Shown here in pieces: positions 37,633 to 45,383 of a stretch of 51,401 nt of DNA. The notes under the pieces are model-generated. The model was given only the letters and a program-made list of their open reading frames with translations. It was not told where the DNA came from and made no database searches. This stretch comes from Rhodoferax sp. (lineage in GTDB: Bacteria > Pseudomonadota > Gammaproteobacteria > Burkholderiales > Burkholderiaceae_C): NCBI GenBank assembly GCA_016790475.1, contig JAEUOX010000167.1, positions 1-51,401 of the forward strand, given 5' to 3'. The translations under genes were made by a program, and so were the position numbers. How positions within the stretch are numbered: position 1 is the first letter of the stretch; the number at the start of each line of letters is the position of its first letter.

Positions 37633-37638
37633 TAGAAT
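37633..37638 (+). promoter_or_regulatory. Candidate metK -10 box
   Basis: TAGAAT in the context GCTAGAATGC, a common housekeeping -10 in Burkholderiales. The expected transcription start is near 37645, giving a leader of about 147 bases for metK. A good -35 is not visible. Confidence 0.45.
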
Positions 37639-37644
37639 GCGCGC

Positions 37645-37801
37645 GTCGCTGAGTTACGGAACTACTTGCAGGGCGACACACAAGCGCCGGTGCCCGACAC
37701 CGCGATTGTGCCTTGTGAATCTGCTAAAGCGTTCGCCATGGCCCGGTGCCCGGCAACGCGACCCTTGTGTTGTTGATGGAGCATGCACCCTATGGCGAAC
37801 G
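37645..37801 (+). promoter_or_regulatory. Structured metK leader, candidate start-masking regulatory RNA
   Basis: Three features stand out. (1) A perfect 10-base inverted repeat, cgttcgccat (37730-37739) with atggcgaacg (37792-37801), pairs the leader with the metK start codon and codons 2-4; ggtgc (37745-37749) and gcacc (37785-37789) extend the helix. (2) A 19-base direct repeat with two differences (37687-37705 and 37743-37761). (3) cacaag (37679-37684) can pair with either of two cttgtg copies (37712-37717 or 37764-37769). This looks like a switch that hides the ribosome site GGAG (37778-37781) and ATG. I do not recognise it as a SAM-I to SAM-VI or SAH riboswitch. Confidence 0.55.
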
Positions 37802-38970
37802 ATTTCCTCTTTACCTCCGAATCCGTCTCTGAAGGCCACCCCGACAAGGTGTCCGACCAGATCTCGGACGCGATCCTCGACGCGATCTTCAAGCAGGACC
37901 CGAAGTCCCGTGTGGCCGCGGAGACCCTGTGCAACACCGGCCTGGTGGTGCTGGCCGGCGAGATCACCACCAACGCGCACGTCGACTACATCCAGGTCGC
38001 ACGCGACACGATCAAGCGCATCGGCTACGACAACACCGAGTACGGCATCGACTACAAGGGCTGCGCAGTGCTGGTCGCCTACGACAAGCAGAGCAACGAC
38101 ATCGCCCAGGGTGTGGACCACGCCAGCGACGACCACCTGAACACCGGTGCCGGCGACCAGGGCCTCATGTTCGGCTACGCCTGCAACGAGACCCCCGAGC
38201 TGATGCCGGCGCCGATCTACTACGCGCACCGGCTGGTCGAGCGCCAGTCGCAGCTGCGCAAGGACGGCCGCCTGCCCTTCCTGCGGCCGGACGCCAAGAG
38301 CCAGGTCACGATGCGTTATGTCGACGGCAAGCCGCACAGCATCGACACCGTCGTGCTGTCGAGCCAGCATGCCCCGGAGATGAGCGACGGCGCGAAGATG
38401 AAGCCGGCCTTCATCGAGGCGGTCATCGAGGAGATCATCAAGCCGGTGCTGCCGAAGGAATGGCTCAAGGACACCAAGTACCTCGTCAACCCGACCGGGC
38501 GCTTCGTGATCGGCGGCCCGCAGGGTGACTGCGGCCTGACCGGCCGCAAGATCATCGTCGACACCTACGGCGGCGCCTGCCCGCACGGCGGTGGCGCCTT
38601 CAGCGGCAAGGATCCGACGAAGGTCGATCGCTCCGCCGCCTACGCCGCACGTTATGTGGCCAAGAACATCGTGGCCGCTGGCCTGGCCCGGCAGTGCCAG
38701 ATCCAGGTGGCCTACGCGATCGGCGTGGCCCGGCCGATGAACGTGACGATCTACACCGAAGGCACCGGCGTGCTGCCCGACGACAAGATCGCCGAGCTGG
38801 TGAACGCCCATTTCGACCTGCGGCCCAAGGGCATCATCCAGATGCTCGACCTGCTGCGCCCGATCTACGAGAAGACGGCCGCCTACGGCCACTTCGGCCG
38901 CGAGGAGCCGGAGTTCTCCTGGGAGCGCACCGACAAGGCCCAGGCACTGCGGGCCGCCGCCGGGCTCTGA
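37792..38970 (+). CDS. metK: S-adenosylmethionine synthetase
   Basis: A 392-residue enzyme making SAM from methionine and ATP. The N-terminal [24 protein letters not shown] includes active-site His16; further hallmarks are [47 protein letters not shown] and [23 protein letters not shown]. The ATG at 37792 is preferred to one nine bases earlier, as GGAG at 37778-37781 is the right distance away and relatives begin MANDF. Its start codon is inside a long inverted repeat with the leader. Confidence 0.96.
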
Positions 38971-38996: not shown

Positions 38997-39730
38997 CACG
39001 CGCCGCTCCGCAGCCAGCGGCGCAACCCCCAGGCACCCAGCAGGAGCAACCCCAGCGTCAGCCCGGCCAGCGCGAAGGTCGCGGGCGAGGGGCTGCGCAG
39101 CGCCTGCTGGATCTGCTCCAGAAACACCGCCACCCCCAGCGTGCCGGGCAGGATGCCGATCGCCGTGCCCAGCAGCAGGTCGCGCAACCGGAGGTGGCTG
39201 GCCCCCGCCACCATGTTCACGACCGCGAAAGGCGCCACCGGCACCAGGCGGACCGCCAGCACCGCCAGCAGCCCGCGCCGGGCCAGCCGGTGGCTCAGCA
39301 GGTTGACGCGCGGTCCGGCCAGGCGTTCGAGCACCTCGCGGCCGAGATAGCGCCCGGTGGCATAACTCGCGCCCGCGGCCAGCAGCGCGCCGACAAACAC
39401 GCAGGCCGATCCCAGCACCGGCCCGTAGGCCGCCACGGCCACCACGGTCAGGAACATCAGCGGCACGGCAAACACCAGCGCGACCGTCAAAGCCGCCAGG
39501 GCTGCCAACGGCCCGAAGGAGCGCCCGGCCGCGCGCACGGCGCCCACCAGCGCGTCGACATCCAGCCAGGCGCGCAGCGGCGACCAGCTCCAGGCCACCG
39601 CCAGCCCGGCCACCAGCAGCAGTGCCAGCACCAGCAGCACCAGCTTGCGCCGCAGTGCCGCGTTCGCTGGAGTACCTTCGCGCTGCGCGCTGCGGTGCTG
39701 AGCACCCTGGGGCGGCCCGGCGGCGCTCAT
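38996..39730 (-). CDS. TVP38/TMEM64 (VTT/DedA-like) membrane protein
   Basis: A 244-residue membrane protein with several hydrophobic helices. The VTT-domain core is FAVPLMFLTVVAVAAYGPVLGSACVFVGALLAAGASYATGRYLGR and the later VRLVPVAPFAVVNMVAGAS, which matches the conserved proline-rich re-entrant motif. Eukaryotic VTT proteins scramble lipids, and bacterial DedA relatives flip lipid carriers. Its ATG overlaps the NRPS stop by four bases, so it belongs to the same operon and could move the NRPS product or a lipid substrate across the membrane. Confidence 0.85.
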   Translation of the reverse strand: MSAAGPPQGAQHRSAQREGTPANAALRRKLVLLVLALLLVAGLAVAWSWSPLRAWLDVDALVGAVRAAGRSFGPLAALAALTVALVFAVPLMFLTVVAVAAYGPVLGSACVFVGALLAAGASYATGRYLGREVLERLAGPRVNLLSHRLARRGLLAVLAVRLVPVAPFAVVNMVAGASHLRLRDLLLGTAIGILPGTLGVAVFLEQIQQALRSPSPATFALAGLTLGLLLLGAWGLRRWLRSGA

Positions 39731-42700
39731 GGCGTTCCCCGCTGGATGTCGGCCAGCAGCGCGGCCAGCGCCCGCACGCTGCCGGCCTCGAAGATCGACC
39801 CGTGCAGGCCGGCGATGTACCGCTCGCTGTAGCGCGCTCCCATGCGCTGGCGCCAGCTCCCGAACAGCATCCGGTGCCAGCGCGCCAGGCCGGTCGTCTT
39901 GATCAGCACCAGCGGCGCGGCCACCGGCGTGACGCGGTAGCCGGTCATCGCCATGACCTGGCCGGACAGCCCGGTGTCGTTGACCATCGCCCCGAGGCGC
40001 CGGCCGTTCAGGCTCAGCTGCCCGATGCGCAACCAGCGCACCAGCGCCGCGAAGATGCGCCAGTAGAAGCTGCCCCCCCAGACCGCCTTCGGGAACACGG
40101 TGTCGATCAGGATCAGCCCGCGCACCGGTACGCCGCGCTGCTCCAGCAGGCGCACCGTCTCCAGGGCCGCCACACCACCGATCGAGAAGCCCGCGACGAA
40201 GCCGGCCGGCAGGCCCAGGGCCTGGATCGCGTCCGCATAACGCGCCGCCAGGTCGCCAATCCGCCGGTAGGGTTCGCCGACCGGCGGCTGCAGCATGCGC
40301 ACATCGCAGCGCCCGGCCAGGGCCTCGGCCAAGTTCTGGAAGCGCATCAGGTCCCCATGGCCGGAAGCGGCCATGAACAGCGGCGCCTGCCCCGGCGCCA
40401 TGCCGAACCCGACCAGCACGCCCGGAAGCGGGTCCTCGCGGCCGACAGCCAGCGCGAACTGTTCCACCGTCGGATGCTCGGTCAGCAGATACAGCGGCAA
40501 CGGCCGCCCCAGCCGGCGTTCGGTGGCGGTGAGCAGGCCGACGGCGGACAGGGAATCCCCTCCGGCATCGAAGAAGTTGTCCTGCACCGTCAGGTCGGGC
40601 CGGCCCAGGGCCTCCTGCCAGATGGCCAGCAGATCCTGCTCCAGGGCGCCGGCCGGCGCCCGATGGGCCGGGGCCGGCGCCGGCTCGGGGATCGGGGGCA
40701 GCGCGGCATAGTCGATCTTGCCGGTACTGCTGCAGGGCAGCTCCGGCAGGACCGCCAGGCGCGCCGGCACCATGTAGTCCGGCAGGCGCAGGCGCAGCAA
40801 GCGCAGCAGGCTCTCCGGCGCCGGCGCACCGGCACCGCCGACCCAGGCGTGCAGCGCCAGCCGGCCGTCGGACTGCACCGGCTGCACGGCCGCCTGCGTG
40901 ACGCCTTCGGCGGCCAGCAGCGCCGACTCGATTTCGCCGAGCTCGACCCGGTAACCCCGCAGCTTGACTTGGCGGTCCAGCCGCCCGCTGAAATGCAGTT
41001 GACCGTCCGGTGTGAGCCAGCCGCGGTCACCGGTGCGGTACAGGCGCTCTCCGGGCCGGTGGGGGTCGTCGACGAACGCGGCGGCGGTCAGCGCCGGCTG
41101 GTTCAGGTAACCGCGCGCCAGGCCGGCGCCGCCGATGCAGATCTCCCCCGGCACCCCCCAGGGCAGCAGGCGCAGTGCGTCGTCCAGCACGCGCACCACG
41201 GTGCCGTCGACCGGCGTTCCGATCGGCAGGGCCTGTCTGCCAGGCTGGGGGGTGCAGGCCCAGGCCGTCGCGAAGATGCAGGCCTCGGTCGGACCGTAGA
41301 CATTGAACAGGCGGGCCGCGGTCCCGGCCTGGTAGCGGGCCATGAGCTCGGGCGACAGCACCTCGCCGCCGCAACAGGCCACGCGCAGGCGCAAGGCGGG
41401 CCGGCCCGCCGCCGCATCCAGGAAGCCGCTCAGCGTCGAGGGCACGAAGGCCATGATCGTGACCGCGTGGCGCATCGCGAACTCCGCGACCGATTCCGGA
41501 TGCAGGCGACCGGGCGGCGCCAGCGCGACGCTGGCACCGTTGACCAGCGGCAGGTACAGCTCGATCAGCGACGGGTCGAACGTGGCCTGGGTCGCCAGCG
41601 CCGAGCGGTCCTGCGGCACGACACCGTAGGTCCGCGTCAGCCAGGCCATGCGCTGCGCCAGCGCGGCATGCTCGACCATCACGCCCTTGGGCCGCCCGGT
41701 GGATCCGGACGTGAACAGCACATAGGCCAGGTCCGCGGCCTGCGGCGTCGCCGGCGGAGCCATCGCGGTGTGGTCGGCCAGCGTGGGCTCCCAGCCGGTG
41801 ACGACGGCGCGCGGATGCAGCGCACCGAGCCGGTCCAGCGCGTCCTCCTGCAGCAGCAGCGCCAGCGCACCGCTGTCCTGCAGGATGCCTGCCAGGCGGG
41901 CCACCGGCGCGTCCGGATCCAGCGGCAGGCAGGCCGCGCCGGCCTTGGCGATCGCCAGCACCGCGACCACCAGATCCGCCGAGCGTGGCAGCGCGACCGC
42001 CACAACGCCGTCCCGGCCGGCACCCAGCGCCACCAGGCGATGCGCCAGCCGGTTGGCACGCGCATCCAGCGTGCCGTAGTCCATGCTGCCACCGTCCCAG
42101 ACCAGGGCCAGCGCATCCGGGCGCGCGGCAGCATGGCGCTCGAAGCTGCGGATGCAGGTCTCCACCACCGGTGCGGCCGGGGCGGCCTGTGCCAGCAGCG
42201 CGGCCTGCTCCTCCGGCGGCAGCAGCGGCAGGTCCCCGACCAGCCGCTGCGGCTCGGCAGCCAGCAGCTGGGCCAGATGCCACAGGCGCCGTGCCAGGGG
42301 GCCGACCTCCTCGCCGGCGAAACAGTCGGCGCTGGCCTCCAGCACCAGCTCCAGGTCCTGCTCGGGGTGAAACTCGCAGACCGTGACACCCAGCGGGTAG
42401 CGCGCCACGCCGGAGAAGAATTGCCGCGAATCGACGCGCCGCGCGGCGCCGAAATGCACGGCGTAGTCCTGCTGCTCGAACGACAGGATCAGGTCGAAAA
42501 GGCTGTCCCGGCCGCTGCGCAGGATCTGCAGGGAACGCGCGAGTTCGCTCAGCGGGTAGCGGGGCCGGCGCAGCGCCGCGCGCATCGCTGCCGCCGCGCC
42601 GGCGACGAGCTCGCCCGCGCTTTGCCCCGGGGCCACGTCGATGCCGAGTGCGAGCACACCGACGAACATGCCCGGCGTCGCGCGGAAGCGGCGCCCGCCG

Positions 42701-43581
42701 CGGTTGAGCGTCGGCACGCCGACCAGCACCTGCGACCGGCCGGCCAGGCGACCGAAGTACAGCGCCAGCGCTGCCAGGAAGAAGACGAACGGGCTCTGCT
42801 CGCGGGCGGCGGCCTGCCGGACGAGCTCCTGGTAGGCGCCCCGTGGCAGGGCCCAGGTCGCCAGATGCGCGGCCGGCAGGCCGGCGTGCCGCTGCGCATC
42901 CGGCCGGCGTTCGAGCAGCGGCTCCGGCAGCTGCGTGATCTGGCCGTTCCAGTGCTGCGCGTCCCGCGTGAAGCTCTCGGAGCCCAGGTAGGCCAGGGAA
43001 TCGGCGATGAACTCCGCATAGGGCGCTGCCGCGGGTGGCGCGACGGCACCGCCATCGAGCTGGTTGTACAGCGCGCTCCAGCGCGCCATCACCTGCGATG
43101 TGCCCCAGCCGTCCATCACGACATGGTGGAACTGCATCGCCAGGCCATGCAGTGTCGGGTGGACCCGCAGCAGCGCAAAGCGCCATGGCGGCGTACCGTC
43201 GAATGCAAAGGGCCGCGCCAGCGCCGCCTGCCACCAGTCCTGCATCGCGGCACAGGGCTCGACACCGGTGGGCACCTCCACCAGCTCCAGCGTCGGCTCC
43301 CAGCGGGCGAGCAGCCGCTGCGTGCCGTCCGGCAGCGGGGCCAGCCGCAGCGCGTCGCATTCCTGCACGAGCAGCTGCAGCGCCGCGACGCAGCGCTGCA
43401 CGTCCAGCGGACCGTCGAGGAAGCCCCCGCCGCCGATCATCAGGTGCGGGCTGTCGGGCCAGGCGGCGCGGTCCCGCCAGACCTCGCGCTGGCTCAGCGA
43501 CAGCGGCAAGGACGCGCCGGCCGGCGCGTCCGGCGGCGCGCCCGCGGCGCGGCTCAGGAGGCCATCTTCGAGCGATCCCAC
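39727..43581 (-). CDS. Single-module non-ribosomal peptide synthetase (C-A-PCP-TE)
   Basis: A 1284-residue NRPS with one module. Condensation domain about 25-450 with the active H152-H-x3-D-G motif (MQFHHVVMDGWG). Adenylation domain about 470-960 with LFTSGSTGRPKG, the aspartate-bearing FDPSLIELY (typical of alpha-amino acids), NVYGPTEA, YRTGDRGW and the A10 lysine in SSTGKIDY. The carrier Ser1010 is in DAGGDSLSAVG. The thioesterase has Ser1133 in GFSIGG. The start is assigned to a GTG at 43581, inside the end of the patatin gene, preceded by AAAGAGA; no in-frame ATG is nearby. An N-terminal condensation domain suggests an acyl or other carrier-bound donor. The product is unknown. Confidence 0.88.
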   Translation of the reverse strand: MGSLEDGLLSRAAGAPPDAPAGASLPLSLSQREVWRDRAAWPDSPHLMIGGGGFLDGPLDVQRCVAALQLLVQECDALRLAPLPDGTQRLLARWEPTLELVEVPTGVEPCAAMQDWWQAALARPFAFDGTPPWRFALLRVHPTLHGLAMQFHHVVMDGWGTSQVMARWSALYNQLDGGAVAPPAAAPYAEFIADSLAYLGSESFTRDAQHWNGQITQLPEPLLERRPDAQRHAGLPAAHLATWALPRGAYQELVRQAAAREQSPFVFFLAALALYFGRLAGRSQVLVGVPTLNRGGRRFRATPGMFVGVLALGIDVAPGQSAGELVAGAAAAMRAALRRPRYPLSELARSLQILRSGRDSLFDLILSFEQQDYAVHFGAARRVDSRQFFSGVARYPLGVTVCEFHPEQDLELVLEASADCFAGEEVGPLARRLWHLAQLLAAEPQRLVGDLPLLPPEEQAALLAQAAPAAPVVETCIRSFERHAAARPDALALVWDGGSMDYGTLDARANRLAHRLVALGAGRDGVVAVALPRSADLVVAVLAIAKAGAACLPLDPDAPVARLAGILQDSGALALLLQEDALDRLGALHPRAVVTGWEPTLADHTAMAPPATPQAADLAYVLFTSGSTGRPKGVMVEHAALAQRMAWLTRTYGVVPQDRSALATQATFDPSLIELYLPLVNGASVALAPPGRLHPESVAEFAMRHAVTIMAFVPSTLSGFLDAAAGRPALRLRVACCGGEVLSPELMARYQAGTAARLFNVYGPTEACIFATAWACTPQPGRQALPIGTPVDGTVVRVLDDALRLLPWGVPGEICIGGAGLARGYLNQPALTAAAFVDDPHRPGERLYRTGDRGWLTPDGQLHFSGRLDRQVKLRGYRVELGEIESALLAAEGVTQAAVQPVQSDGRLALHAWVGGAGAPAPESLLRLLRLRLPDYMVPARLAVLPELPCSSTGKIDYAALPPIPEPAPAPAHRAPAGALEQDLLAIWQEALGRPDLTVQDNFFDAGGDSLSAVGLLTATERRLGRPLPLYLLTEHPTVEQFALAVGREDPLPGVLVGFGMAPGQAPLFMAASGHGDLMRFQNLAEALAGRCDVRMLQPPVGEPYRRIGDLAARYADAIQALGLPAGFVAGFSIGGVAALETVRLLEQRGVPVRGLILIDTVFPKAVWGGSFYWRIFAALVRWLRIGQLSLNGRRLGAMVNDTGLSGQVMAMTGYRVTPVAAPLVLIKTTGLARWHRMLFGSWRQRMGARYSERYIAGLHGSIFEAGSVRALAALLADIQRGTP

Positions 43582-45383
43582 TGCTCGATCTCTTTCATCG
43601 CATGCCGGAAGCCGACCTCGGCGATCTCTGCCGCCTGGCGATAGGCCATCAGCGCGAAGGCGCCGACCGGCGGCTCCATGTACAGGTCGGACTGCGCGAT
43701 CGTGCGGCCGCGCTGGTTCAGGCCGCCGATGTGCCCGGCGCGGTACAGGATGTCGCCGATGCCGGGGGAAGCCGCCGCACCGGGCGTCAGGTAGGACTTG
43801 AGCTTGCGCCAGGCCGACAGACGGGTCAGGTTCTGGTCCACGCCCATGTAGTCCTGCACGTCCACGTCGATCGCGATGATGGTTCCGTTGCCCCGGCGCT
43901 TCTCGGCCCGGGTGCCCAGGCGCATGCGCATCGCCTCGACCGGCACGTTCTCCAGGATGGCGCCGTCCACCAGCAGATCGCCGTTGTGCACGACTGGCGG
44001 GAACAGCCCGACCGGCGAGTTGCTGGCCAGCACCGCGCGCCACAGCGGGCCGCTGTCCTGCACTGTCGTGCAGGCGCGACTCAGGTTGCAGGCCGCGGCG
44101 AAGAAGGGCCGCCACAGCGCGTCGACCGACCGGTCGCCGAACATGCGCTGCAGATCGCGCTGCACCCGCTTGCCGGACACCAGCGAGATCACCGGCACGG
44201 TGGGCCGCTCACCCCCGCGGGCGAAGCGCATCGTCTGCTCGCGGATCGCGTCCAGCGGCAGTCCGCAGGCATATTGCGCGCCGAGCAACGCGCCCATGCT
44301 GTTGCCGCCGATCAGGTCCACCGGGATCCGGCATTGCTCCAGCGCGCGCAGCACACCCAGGTGCGCGAAACCGCGCGCGCCACCGCCGCCCAGCACGACA
44401 CCGGTGGCCTTGCCGGTCAGGAAGCGTGCCAGCCGCGCGAAGTCGCTGGCCTCCCCGTGGCGCACCGGGTAGATGCGCTCCAGGTCGCGCTGTGCGCGCC
44501 AGGGTGCGATCTCCTGCGGCTGCCCGGCGCCTTCCGGATGCAGCAGCACCAGGTGCCGGCGCTTCATCTCGAAGCCGGGCTCCTCGCGCAGCCGCAGCTC
44601 CAGCGGGCCGGGTGCGGTCGGGGCGTCCGGCGGGGCAACGAACACCACCTGGTCGGCCTGCCGGAACGCACGGCGGGCCCAGGAGGATCCGTCATCGTCC
44701 GCCTCGTAGATCAGGAAGTCGTACTGCTTCTCCAGTTGGTCGTAGCGGTCCAGCGCAACCCAGCCGGACGTGGCATCCGGATGCAGGTCGCGCTCGGTCT
44801 CCGGGCCGACATGCTGCGCCCGGCCGATCTGGGCCAGGGCCCGCGACAGGCCCTGGGCGACCCGGCGGCAGGCGTTGCCTGGCGCAAGCGGCACCAGCAC
44901 GAAGATCTGCGCCTGGCGCCGCCGCACGACCTGCGAGGTGTGCCGCAGATGGTTGTAGATGGCCTGCGCGAAGACCCTATTCAGCGCCAGCGCATGGCGC
45001 ACCATCAGCCGGTCGAACTCCGCACGCGTCAGCAGCGCCAGCGTGGAATCGCGCAGCGCGGTGATGTCGGCGGCGCGCGGCTGCTGGAGGATCAGGCCGG
45101 CCTCACCGACGCTTTCGCCGGGCAGGATCTCGTTGTAGAGCTGCAGCGCGCCGGTTCGGTCCCGCCGCGACACCCGCAGGCGGCCACTGACCAGGAAGAA
45201 CATCGTGTGCGCCTGCTCCCCCTCGCGGTAGACGATGTCCCCACCGGCGACGAACTGCAGCTGCAGCGTGGCTGCCAGATCCCGCAGCACCTCGTCCGGC
45301 AGGCCGCCGAATACCCCGCTGGCGCGGAGTACGTCCAGCACACGGCTCGGGTCCGGATCCGGGGTCGGGTGGGCGGTCGCCAT
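43554..45383 (-). CDS. Cyclic-nucleotide-binding patatin-like phospholipase
   Basis: A 609-residue protein. Residues about 12-140 form a cNMP-binding domain (LPDEVLRDLAATLQLQFVAGGDIVYREGE, then PGESVGEAGL and the helix after it). A linker domain follows, then the patatin domain from about 320: oxyanion-loop GGGGARGFAHLG, nucleophile Ser362 in GGNSMGAL, and catalytic Asp473 in VDGAILENVPVEA. The NTE/RssA-like family deacylates phospholipids or lysophospholipids. Its end overlaps the NRPS start by 28 bases. It begins 27 bases after the HD-GYP gene. No signal peptide, so cytoplasmic or peripheral. Confidence 0.9.
   Translation of the reverse strand: MATAHPTPDPDPSRVLDVLRASGVFGGLPDEVLRDLAATLQLQFVAGGDIVYREGEQAHTMFFLVSGRLRVSRRDRTGALQLYNEILPGESVGEAGLILQQPRAADITALRDSTLALLTRAEFDRLMVRHALALNRVFAQAIYNHLRHTSQVVRRRQAQIFVLVPLAPGNACRRVAQGLSRALAQIGRAQHVGPETERDLHPDATSGWVALDRYDQLEKQYDFLIYEADDDGSSWARRAFRQADQVVFVAPPDAPTAPGPLELRLREEPGFEMKRRHLVLLHPEGAGQPQEIAPWRAQRDLERIYPVRHGEASDFARLARFLTGKATGVVLGGGGARGFAHLGVLRALEQCRIPVDLIGGNSMGALLGAQYACGLPLDAIREQTMRFARGGERPTVPVISLVSGKRVQRDLQRMFGDRSVDALWRPFFAAACNLSRACTTVQDSGPLWRAVLASNSPVGLFPPVVHNGDLLVDGAILENVPVEAMRMRLGTRAEKRRGNGTIIAIDVDVQDYMGVDQNLTRLSAWRKLKSYLTPGAAASPGIGDILYRAGHIGGLNQRGRTIAQSDLYMEPPVGAFALMAYRQAAEIAEVGFRHAMKEIEQWDRSKMAS

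Follow-up and report, generated by a model that had tools for sequence, protein, structure and literature searches.

SAM-II riboswitches (Rfam family SAM_alpha, RF00521) are described as mostly transcriptional (PMC6061858). The bases listed for their pocket are U11, U12, U20, U21, G22, C23, G42, C43, U44 and A45-A47; the bulged U44 reads the adenine of SAM, and the U at position 10 is termed completely conserved (PMC3764141, from which the pocket roles used below are taken). Tandem arrangements are also on record, 44 having been reported, some with mixed terminator and ribosome-binding-site platforms (PMC9481103), and the family named SAM-II long loops (RF01726) is known from Bacteroidetes and marine data (PMC2864571). 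According to the account of Leyn 2014 (PMC4239095), SAM_alpha occurred only in Rhizobiales and Rhodobacterales, metK of beta-proteobacteria was without a known methionine regulator, the authors' search for one failed, and SAM/SAH (RF01727) and SAM-III riboswitches control metK in other bacteria. Barrick and Breaker (2007) expected gaps to be filled by structural variants missed in homology searches (PMC2258182). The open-licence papers searched describe no SAM-II-type RNA ahead of metK in Burkholderiales; it may have been mentioned elsewhere, e.g. in supplementary alignments.

The metK gene and its leader

The window, i.e. the whole stretch of 51,401 nucleotides from Rhodoferax sp. (assembly GCA_016790475.1, contig JAEUOX010000167.1), carries a metK gene up to 96% identical to those of relatives, with a complete SAM synthetase as product and a lipid A acyltransferase gene as its neighbour in divergent orientation. 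Elsewhere in the window, a 1462-aa ORF (39727-44115, - strand) resembles, by eye, the condensation and adenylation parts of a nonribosomal peptide synthetase. The promoter and start features of metK are:

37633 to 37638, + strand, -10 promoter hexamer TAGAAT (TA[TAG]A[AC]T within 24 nt before stem P1 in 97 of 113 unique leaders)
37778 to 37781, + strand, Shine-Dalgarno sequence GGAG (108 of 113 leaders share a GGAG just upstream of the start)
37792 to 38970, + strand, metK, S-adenosylmethionine synthetase (Pfam PF00438, PF02772 and PF02773)

The true start of metK is, judging from its homologues, very probably the ATG at 37792 rather than the ORF finder's 37783, because most homologues begin their alignment at residue 4 (MANDF) and because the spacing of GGAG suits that ATG only (10 nt, compared with 1 nt to 37783). 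Start codons of relatives, and gene calls around metX and SAM-II-like loci, were assigned by script.

Comparison with relatives marks the leader (37645-37791) as a conserved cis-regulatory RNA. It is conserved among the metK loci of 80 named contigs (Rhodoferax, Ramlibacter, Roseateles, Undibacterium and others) and of genomes from the window's family, which we take to be Burkholderiaceae of the order Burkholderiales in the GTDB sense, and the window's copy folds more stably than its shuffles (z -2.61, 2 of 200 equally good). The consensus reads, 5′ to 3′, RUCGCYGAGUUA..ACUUGCRGGGCGAY, a variable stretch, YYGCUAAAGCGUUCGCC, a loop, GGCAACGC or a variant, and GGAG; GGCAACGC or a listed variant (B motif) was present in 101 of the 113 unique leaders. 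These came from 125 loci, out of 130, that could be parsed by pattern. Among the five that failed (L002, L041, L062, L084 and L093), L062 is truncated, L084 has U at position 10 and L093 has a compensated change in stem P2b (see below). Locus L002 is labelled as a metagenome-assembled genome of Akkermansia muciniphila; its metK is 95% identical to that of the window, and the bin is therefore probably mixed.

In 73 of the 97 hexamer-bearing leaders (113 unique leaders examined), the -10 hexamer lies exactly 6 nt before P1. With the hexamer so placed in most leaders, the element probably starts at the 5′ end of the transcript; in the window, the transcript would probably begin roughly where the aptamer does.

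Pseudoknot and binding pocket

The aptamer half of the leader consists of the following elements, on which the SAM-II numbering was fitted by us:

37645 to 37649, + strand, P1 5′ strand GUCGC (changes on both sides at all 5 pairs, 96.1% of cells paired in 72 metK leaders)
37651 to 37656, + strand, third strand GAGUUA in loop L1 (SAM-II G8 A9 N10 U11 U12 A13, N10 being G here)
37666 to 37671, + strand, 5′ strand UUGCAG of pseudoknot stem P2b, pairing with 37721-37727
37673 to 37677, + strand, P1 3′ strand GCGAC, paired according to the alignment
37678 to 37720, + strand, loop L3, 43 nt, hairpin-forming, containing copy 1 of a direct repeat, CACAAG and the first CTTGTG
37721 to 37728, + strand, P2b 3′ strand CUGC-U-AAA, in which the U at 37725 is bulged (U44 of SAM-II) and AAA is A45-A47

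Two covariance models were built. R1 included the window's own leader, so that the window's score of 67.2 bits is partly by construction; R2 was made from 28 short-insert metK leaders, with the window excluded. In an initial alignment of 41 rows, 99.8% of the P1 and P2b cells were paired. Among 72 metK leaders from many families the figure was 98.2%, with 8 of 11 pairs changed on both sides; this was matched by 0 of 500 shuffles, a control that ignores relatedness, and slid controls reached at most 57.0%. For P2b, all cells with letters on both sides were paired (100%), and compensatory changes were found in 3 of 6 pairs.

Ten pocket positions (U11, U12, U20, U21, G22, C43, U44, A45, A46 and A47) were invariant in 72/72 leaders, as was G8 of L1; since all 72 had been selected because R1 matched them ahead of metK (9 being training rows, and sources matched for 72/72), this conservation is somewhat favoured by selection. 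U44 and A47 lie outside the P2b pairs. C23 and G42 were kept in 71 of the 72 leaders, the sole exception, L093, having a compensated U-A pair.

Of 113 leaders, 62 had a short loop L3 (9-12 nt, median 11) and 42 a long one (45-106 nt), compared with 43 nt in the window. In short-insert leaders it appeared A-rich by eye, the A-minor contacts A36 and A37 of SAM-II being considered. Long-L3 leaders (window 37678-37720; L004, L008, L016 and L053) have in common ATTGTGCC, followed mostly by YTGTC, a conserved sub-element.

Relation to SAM-II

Searched against Rfam, the window leader had no match at the gathering score and chance matches only, none of them to SAM-II, at E<=10; the aptamer is probably missed because of its long L3. 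In 20 metK leaders of relatives, the sole family found at E<=10 was RF00521, in 8 of 20 with 14.7-22.0 bits. Neither the window leader nor any of the 20 relatives matched SAM/SAH, SAM-III, SAM-VI or SAM-II long loops (RF01726) at E<=10. SAM-VI, too, controls metK in other bacteria, and the folds of SAM/SAH, SAM-III and SAM-VI differ from the SAM-II-like fold. When 13 relatives were searched whole, the only Rfam match was a SAH riboswitch (RF01057, 62.6 bits) at L021:5713-5811, approximately 1.5 kb downstream of metK.

The Rfam cut-off of 36 bits was reached by no metK leader checked, the best scoring 26.8 bits (G031). In genomes of the family, RF00521 exceeded the cut-off in 24 of 100, never at metK, and matched at E<=1 in 86 of 100; at this lax threshold 7 of 14 control genomes also matched, none over the cut-off. 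The eight best RF00521 loci of the family are metX leaders, with terminator-like hairpins seen downstream by eye, and two of the eight metX genes were confirmed as MetX by NCBIfam over its cut-off. Model R2 found the window with 42.2 bits (E 2.3e-9) and also all 8 RF00521-positive metX leaders (E 7.9e-7 to 8.7e-4).

The aptamer half of the metK leader is homologous to SAM-II. The layout had originally been thought unlike any familiar class and possibly a new RNA, and a new RNA class is ruled out by this homology (RF00521 matches in relatives; R2 on the window and on metX leaders), even though the window itself has no Rfam hit. The element should not be filed as plain RF00521, because of its position 10 and of scores below the cut-off; it is a variant of the known SAM-II fold and not a separate class.

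Distribution and genomic contexts

R1 matched (E<=0.001) in 60/60 family genomes, each of a separate genus, with the window's own among them and at least 7 having supplied an R1 training row. All 60 genera have a match directly ahead of metK (positions compared by eye), that of G026 covering model positions 3-35 only. Across the order, 167 of 250 genomes matched at E<=0.01, and in a sample of the class 34 of 185 at E<=0.001. From among the order-wide R1 matches listed, 80 further regions were taken. By tblastn, 137 loci (L131-L267) were assigned to metK (65), metZ (25), a MATE transporter (18), metX (8), metH (3) or none of these (18); as these loci were picked among the better-scoring matches, their proportions are no census. 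The best NCBIfam matches of the metZ and metH queries were O-succinylhomoserine sulfhydrylase and methionine synthase, both queries being fragments that scored below the cut-off.

Tandem SAM-II-like aptamers were seen in L149, L154, L159, L160, L162, L166, L198, L250 and L252. Their first copies mostly have U10, with a terminator seen by eye in L149, L154, L250 and L252; the second copies have U10 in L250 and L252 and G10 in the other seven (L149, L154, L159, L160, L162, L166 and L198). A small ORF (MYDC/MFDC...) follows SAM-II-like leaders in L159, L160, L162, L166, L183, L195, L196, L200, L213 and L221; a Pfam search with that of L166 and of L200 gave no match. The loci with this ORF or the MATE transporter possibly represent a SAM-linked export operon. 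SAM-II-like leaders were also found ahead of an apparent MoxR-type AAA ATPase, an unexpected target, in L152, L155, L156 and L252, a reading based on Pfam for L252 only and, for L155 and L156, on N-terminal likeness to L152.

Masking of the start codon

Downstream of the pseudoknot, the following segments were recognized:

37729 to 37739, + strand, masking arm GCGUUCGCCAU, adjoining the pseudoknot (its region co-evolves with that of the start)
37745 to 37749, + strand, second masking segment GGUGC, pairing with 37785-37789
37752 to 37759, + strand, GGCAACGC, alternative partner of the arm in hairpin P3 (8 pairs, one bulged C; the B motif of the consensus)
37792 to 37801, + strand, masked start, AUG and first metK codons, perfect complement of 37730-37739

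The predicted 10-nt inverted repeat is exact, 37730-37739 being the perfect reverse complement of 37792-37801, a match length reached in 7 of 2000 mononucleotide-shuffled leaders. Its proposed extension is likewise in place, with GGTGC (37745-37749) the reverse complement of GCACC (37785-37789). The loop of this second segment contains CUCC, complementary to the Shine-Dalgarno sequence, in 57 of 113 leaders (GCUCC in 37). The original prediction of a metK cis-regulatory RNA able to hide the ribosome site and the start codon is supported; the RNA is conserved in relatives, and its arms covary.

The other repeats fared differently. The 19-base direct repeat exists in two copies, which are inexact (17/19 identical, 89%) and apparently incidental: copy 1 lies in the length-variable L3, copy 2 combines a variable loop with the conserved GGCAACGC, and the core CCGGTGCCCG occurs only in the window's among 113 unique leaders, which speaks against a part in the switch. 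CACAAG and CTTGTG are both where they had been placed; their succession was likewise found only in the window's leader of the 113, which argues against the switching role given to them, and CACAA is better paired within a local L3 hairpin when the window is folded. The idea of two competing partners is plausible for the arm 37729-37739, which could pair with GGCAACGC (37752-37759) or with the start (37792-37801); it does not hold for the hexamers or the direct repeat.

Co-evolution of arm and start was examined in 35 of 37 divergent representatives (L224 and L150 left out). The pairing energy averaged -22.2 kcal/mol for matched and -16.5 kcal/mol for swapped partners, with 0 of 20000 permutations as good; neither this permutation test nor that of P3 corrects for the tree. 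P1 and P2b covary as well. Three control pairings, each judged by 5000 permutations, yielded 225 (arm with aptamer), 4327 (start with aptamer) and 807 (arm with the start region reversed). Compared with its own dinucleotide shuffles, the arm had a mean z of -2.0, with 28 of 35 leaders below 0 and 24 below -1; in the 7 with z>=0 the mask is weak or absent. In 145 of 168 leaders the longest arm/start helix comprised 7 pairs or more; the helix overlapped the start codon in 121 and GGA in 38. Shifted but retained helices include UGCUCAUGG:CCAUGAGCG in L157, UGCUCAUGA:UCAUGAGCA in L173, CGUCGCAGG:CCUGCGAUG in L013, and one of 15 pairs over the Shine-Dalgarno sequence in L179. In L067, L070, L092 and L175 the mask is weak or lost.

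For P3, formed by the arm and GGCAACGC, the swap test gave 0/5000; its support is moderate, because the reversed-sequence composition control gave 72/5000. That P3 is a second state of the masking arm is plausible. Predicted duplexes of the arm with the P1/P2b strands of the aptamer reached -9 to -20 kcal/mol in ten leaders, and co-evolution was absent for this pairing (959/5000); an arm held by the aptamer strands that it resembles is a possibility for the SAM-free state.

Proposed mechanism

The P1/P2b pseudoknot, the SAM-II homology, the co-evolving mask and the association with metK, all established by computation, most likely make up a SAM-responsive OFF switch, of which we infer the ligand, the direction and the coupling. 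The transcript would begin at the aptamer, and SAM, as the conserved pocket suggests, would be held in the major-groove triplex of the P1/P2b pseudoknot. With SAM bound, the arm just 3′ of the pseudoknot would pair with the Shine-Dalgarno/AUG region and block initiation; at low SAM, the arm would be captured by P3 (GGCAACGC) or by the aptamer strands resembling it, leaving the start free. We hold with good confidence that a SAM-II-like riboswitch governs metK translation in this way, with the start masked when SAM is bound and free when SAM is low. The OFF direction is chosen because of feedback logic, metK making SAM, and of the behaviour described for SAM-II and SAM-V (PMC9373788, PMC6061858).

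Position 10 bears on the identity of the ligand. It was G in 60/72 metK leaders, including the window's, and U in 12/72, compared with U in 8/8 metX leaders of the same family; the 72-leader count is used here, the G10 found in 113/113 parsed leaders being biased by the parsing pattern. In SAM-V, the U that we ourselves equate with position 10 hydrogen-bonds the U reading the SAM adenine (PMC6061858), so that G10 would touch the pocket, and SAM-I variants are described as having become spermidine sensors through pocket changes (PMC10853860). The same RNA might accordingly sense another ligand, such as SAH, methionine or a derivative of SAM, or have a retuned affinity, and it might act as an ON switch. 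We consider this improbable, because the remaining contact bases are retained, including two uridines near the sulfonium, U10 occurs in 12 of 72 leaders of this same gene, and the regulated gene makes SAM itself.

Folding of the window gave -62.8 kcal/mol for the masked state and -50.1 for P3; when the aptamer was formed, these values were -58.4 and -41.4. Opening the start region cost 14.5 kcal/mol with or without the aptamer, i.e. at equilibrium it is predicted to be masked both ways. In the 35 representatives, the mean opening cost rose from 9.1 to 10.7 kcal/mol with the aptamer formed (24 up, 5 down), and among 132 other leaders 55 went up and 11 down. The rise did not differ significantly from that with shuffled aptamers (1.50 compared with 0.81 kcal/mol, 22/35, p 0.11), and mean accessibility of the start codon in these predictions was unchanged (0.34 and 0.34). 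Since shuffled aptamers largely reproduce the rise, folding does not prove the direction of the switch. A dominant mask irrespective of the aptamer, together with a switching test that failed its control, would fit an RNA with no ligand, which damps translation constitutively or senses temperature and in which the pseudoknot is a mere stability element. This is very improbable, given the ten invariant pocket positions, two of which (U44 and A47) lie outside the P2b pairs, and the homology to SAM-II metX leaders. That the arm/start complementarity reflects conserved metK codons plus chance is hardly credible: the first codons are conserved, L067 with its MSQDY N-terminus lacks the mask, and helices of at least 7 pairs, found in 26 of 35 own pairings, also form in 44% of swapped ones, length alone thus being a weak sign, yet matched arms outperformed swapped ones in all 20000 permutations and the helix moves and persists, as in L179 and L013.

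Beyond the SAM-responsive OFF switch, a bolder proposal would make the G10 RNAs a distinct translational SAM-II subclass with retuned affinity or ligand, a general and unrecognised control of metK in the family, whose arm exchanges between aptamer, P3 and start codon; as a whole, this appears doubtful.

Comparison with known systems

An element that lies upstream of metK in 60/60 genera of the family and scores below the Rfam cut-off makes the gap in metK regulation of beta-proteobacteria a testable question. With SAM-II, it shares the H-type pseudoknot of P1 and P2b, the bulged U in GCUAAA, the L1 uridines and an association with methionine/SAM genes, and each of the two profiles finds some members of the other. 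It differs in G10, the 43-nt L3, the sub-gathering score, metK as target and the arm that masks the start codon. The long L3 recalls SAM-II long loops (RF01726), by name long-looped relatives of SAM-II.

The metXZ element of beta-proteobacteria, as described by Leyn 2014 (PMC4239095), is likewise a pseudoknot element of related bacteria; unlike that of the window, it lies upstream of metX/metZ and is accompanied by a terminator. From the sequences compared here it is probably SAM-II, with the metX leaders L131-L138 as its members, because metX leaders in our set exceed the RF00521 cut-off and have terminator-like hairpins by eye.

SAM-V, a proposed translational OFF switch, shares the pseudoknot type and the SAM site, and is described as hiding its Shine-Dalgarno sequence in the pseudoknot stem P2a (PMC6061858). 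In the window this trait is absent, GGAG at 37778 lying approximately 50 nt past the pseudoknot, and the metK leader would use a downstream arm instead.
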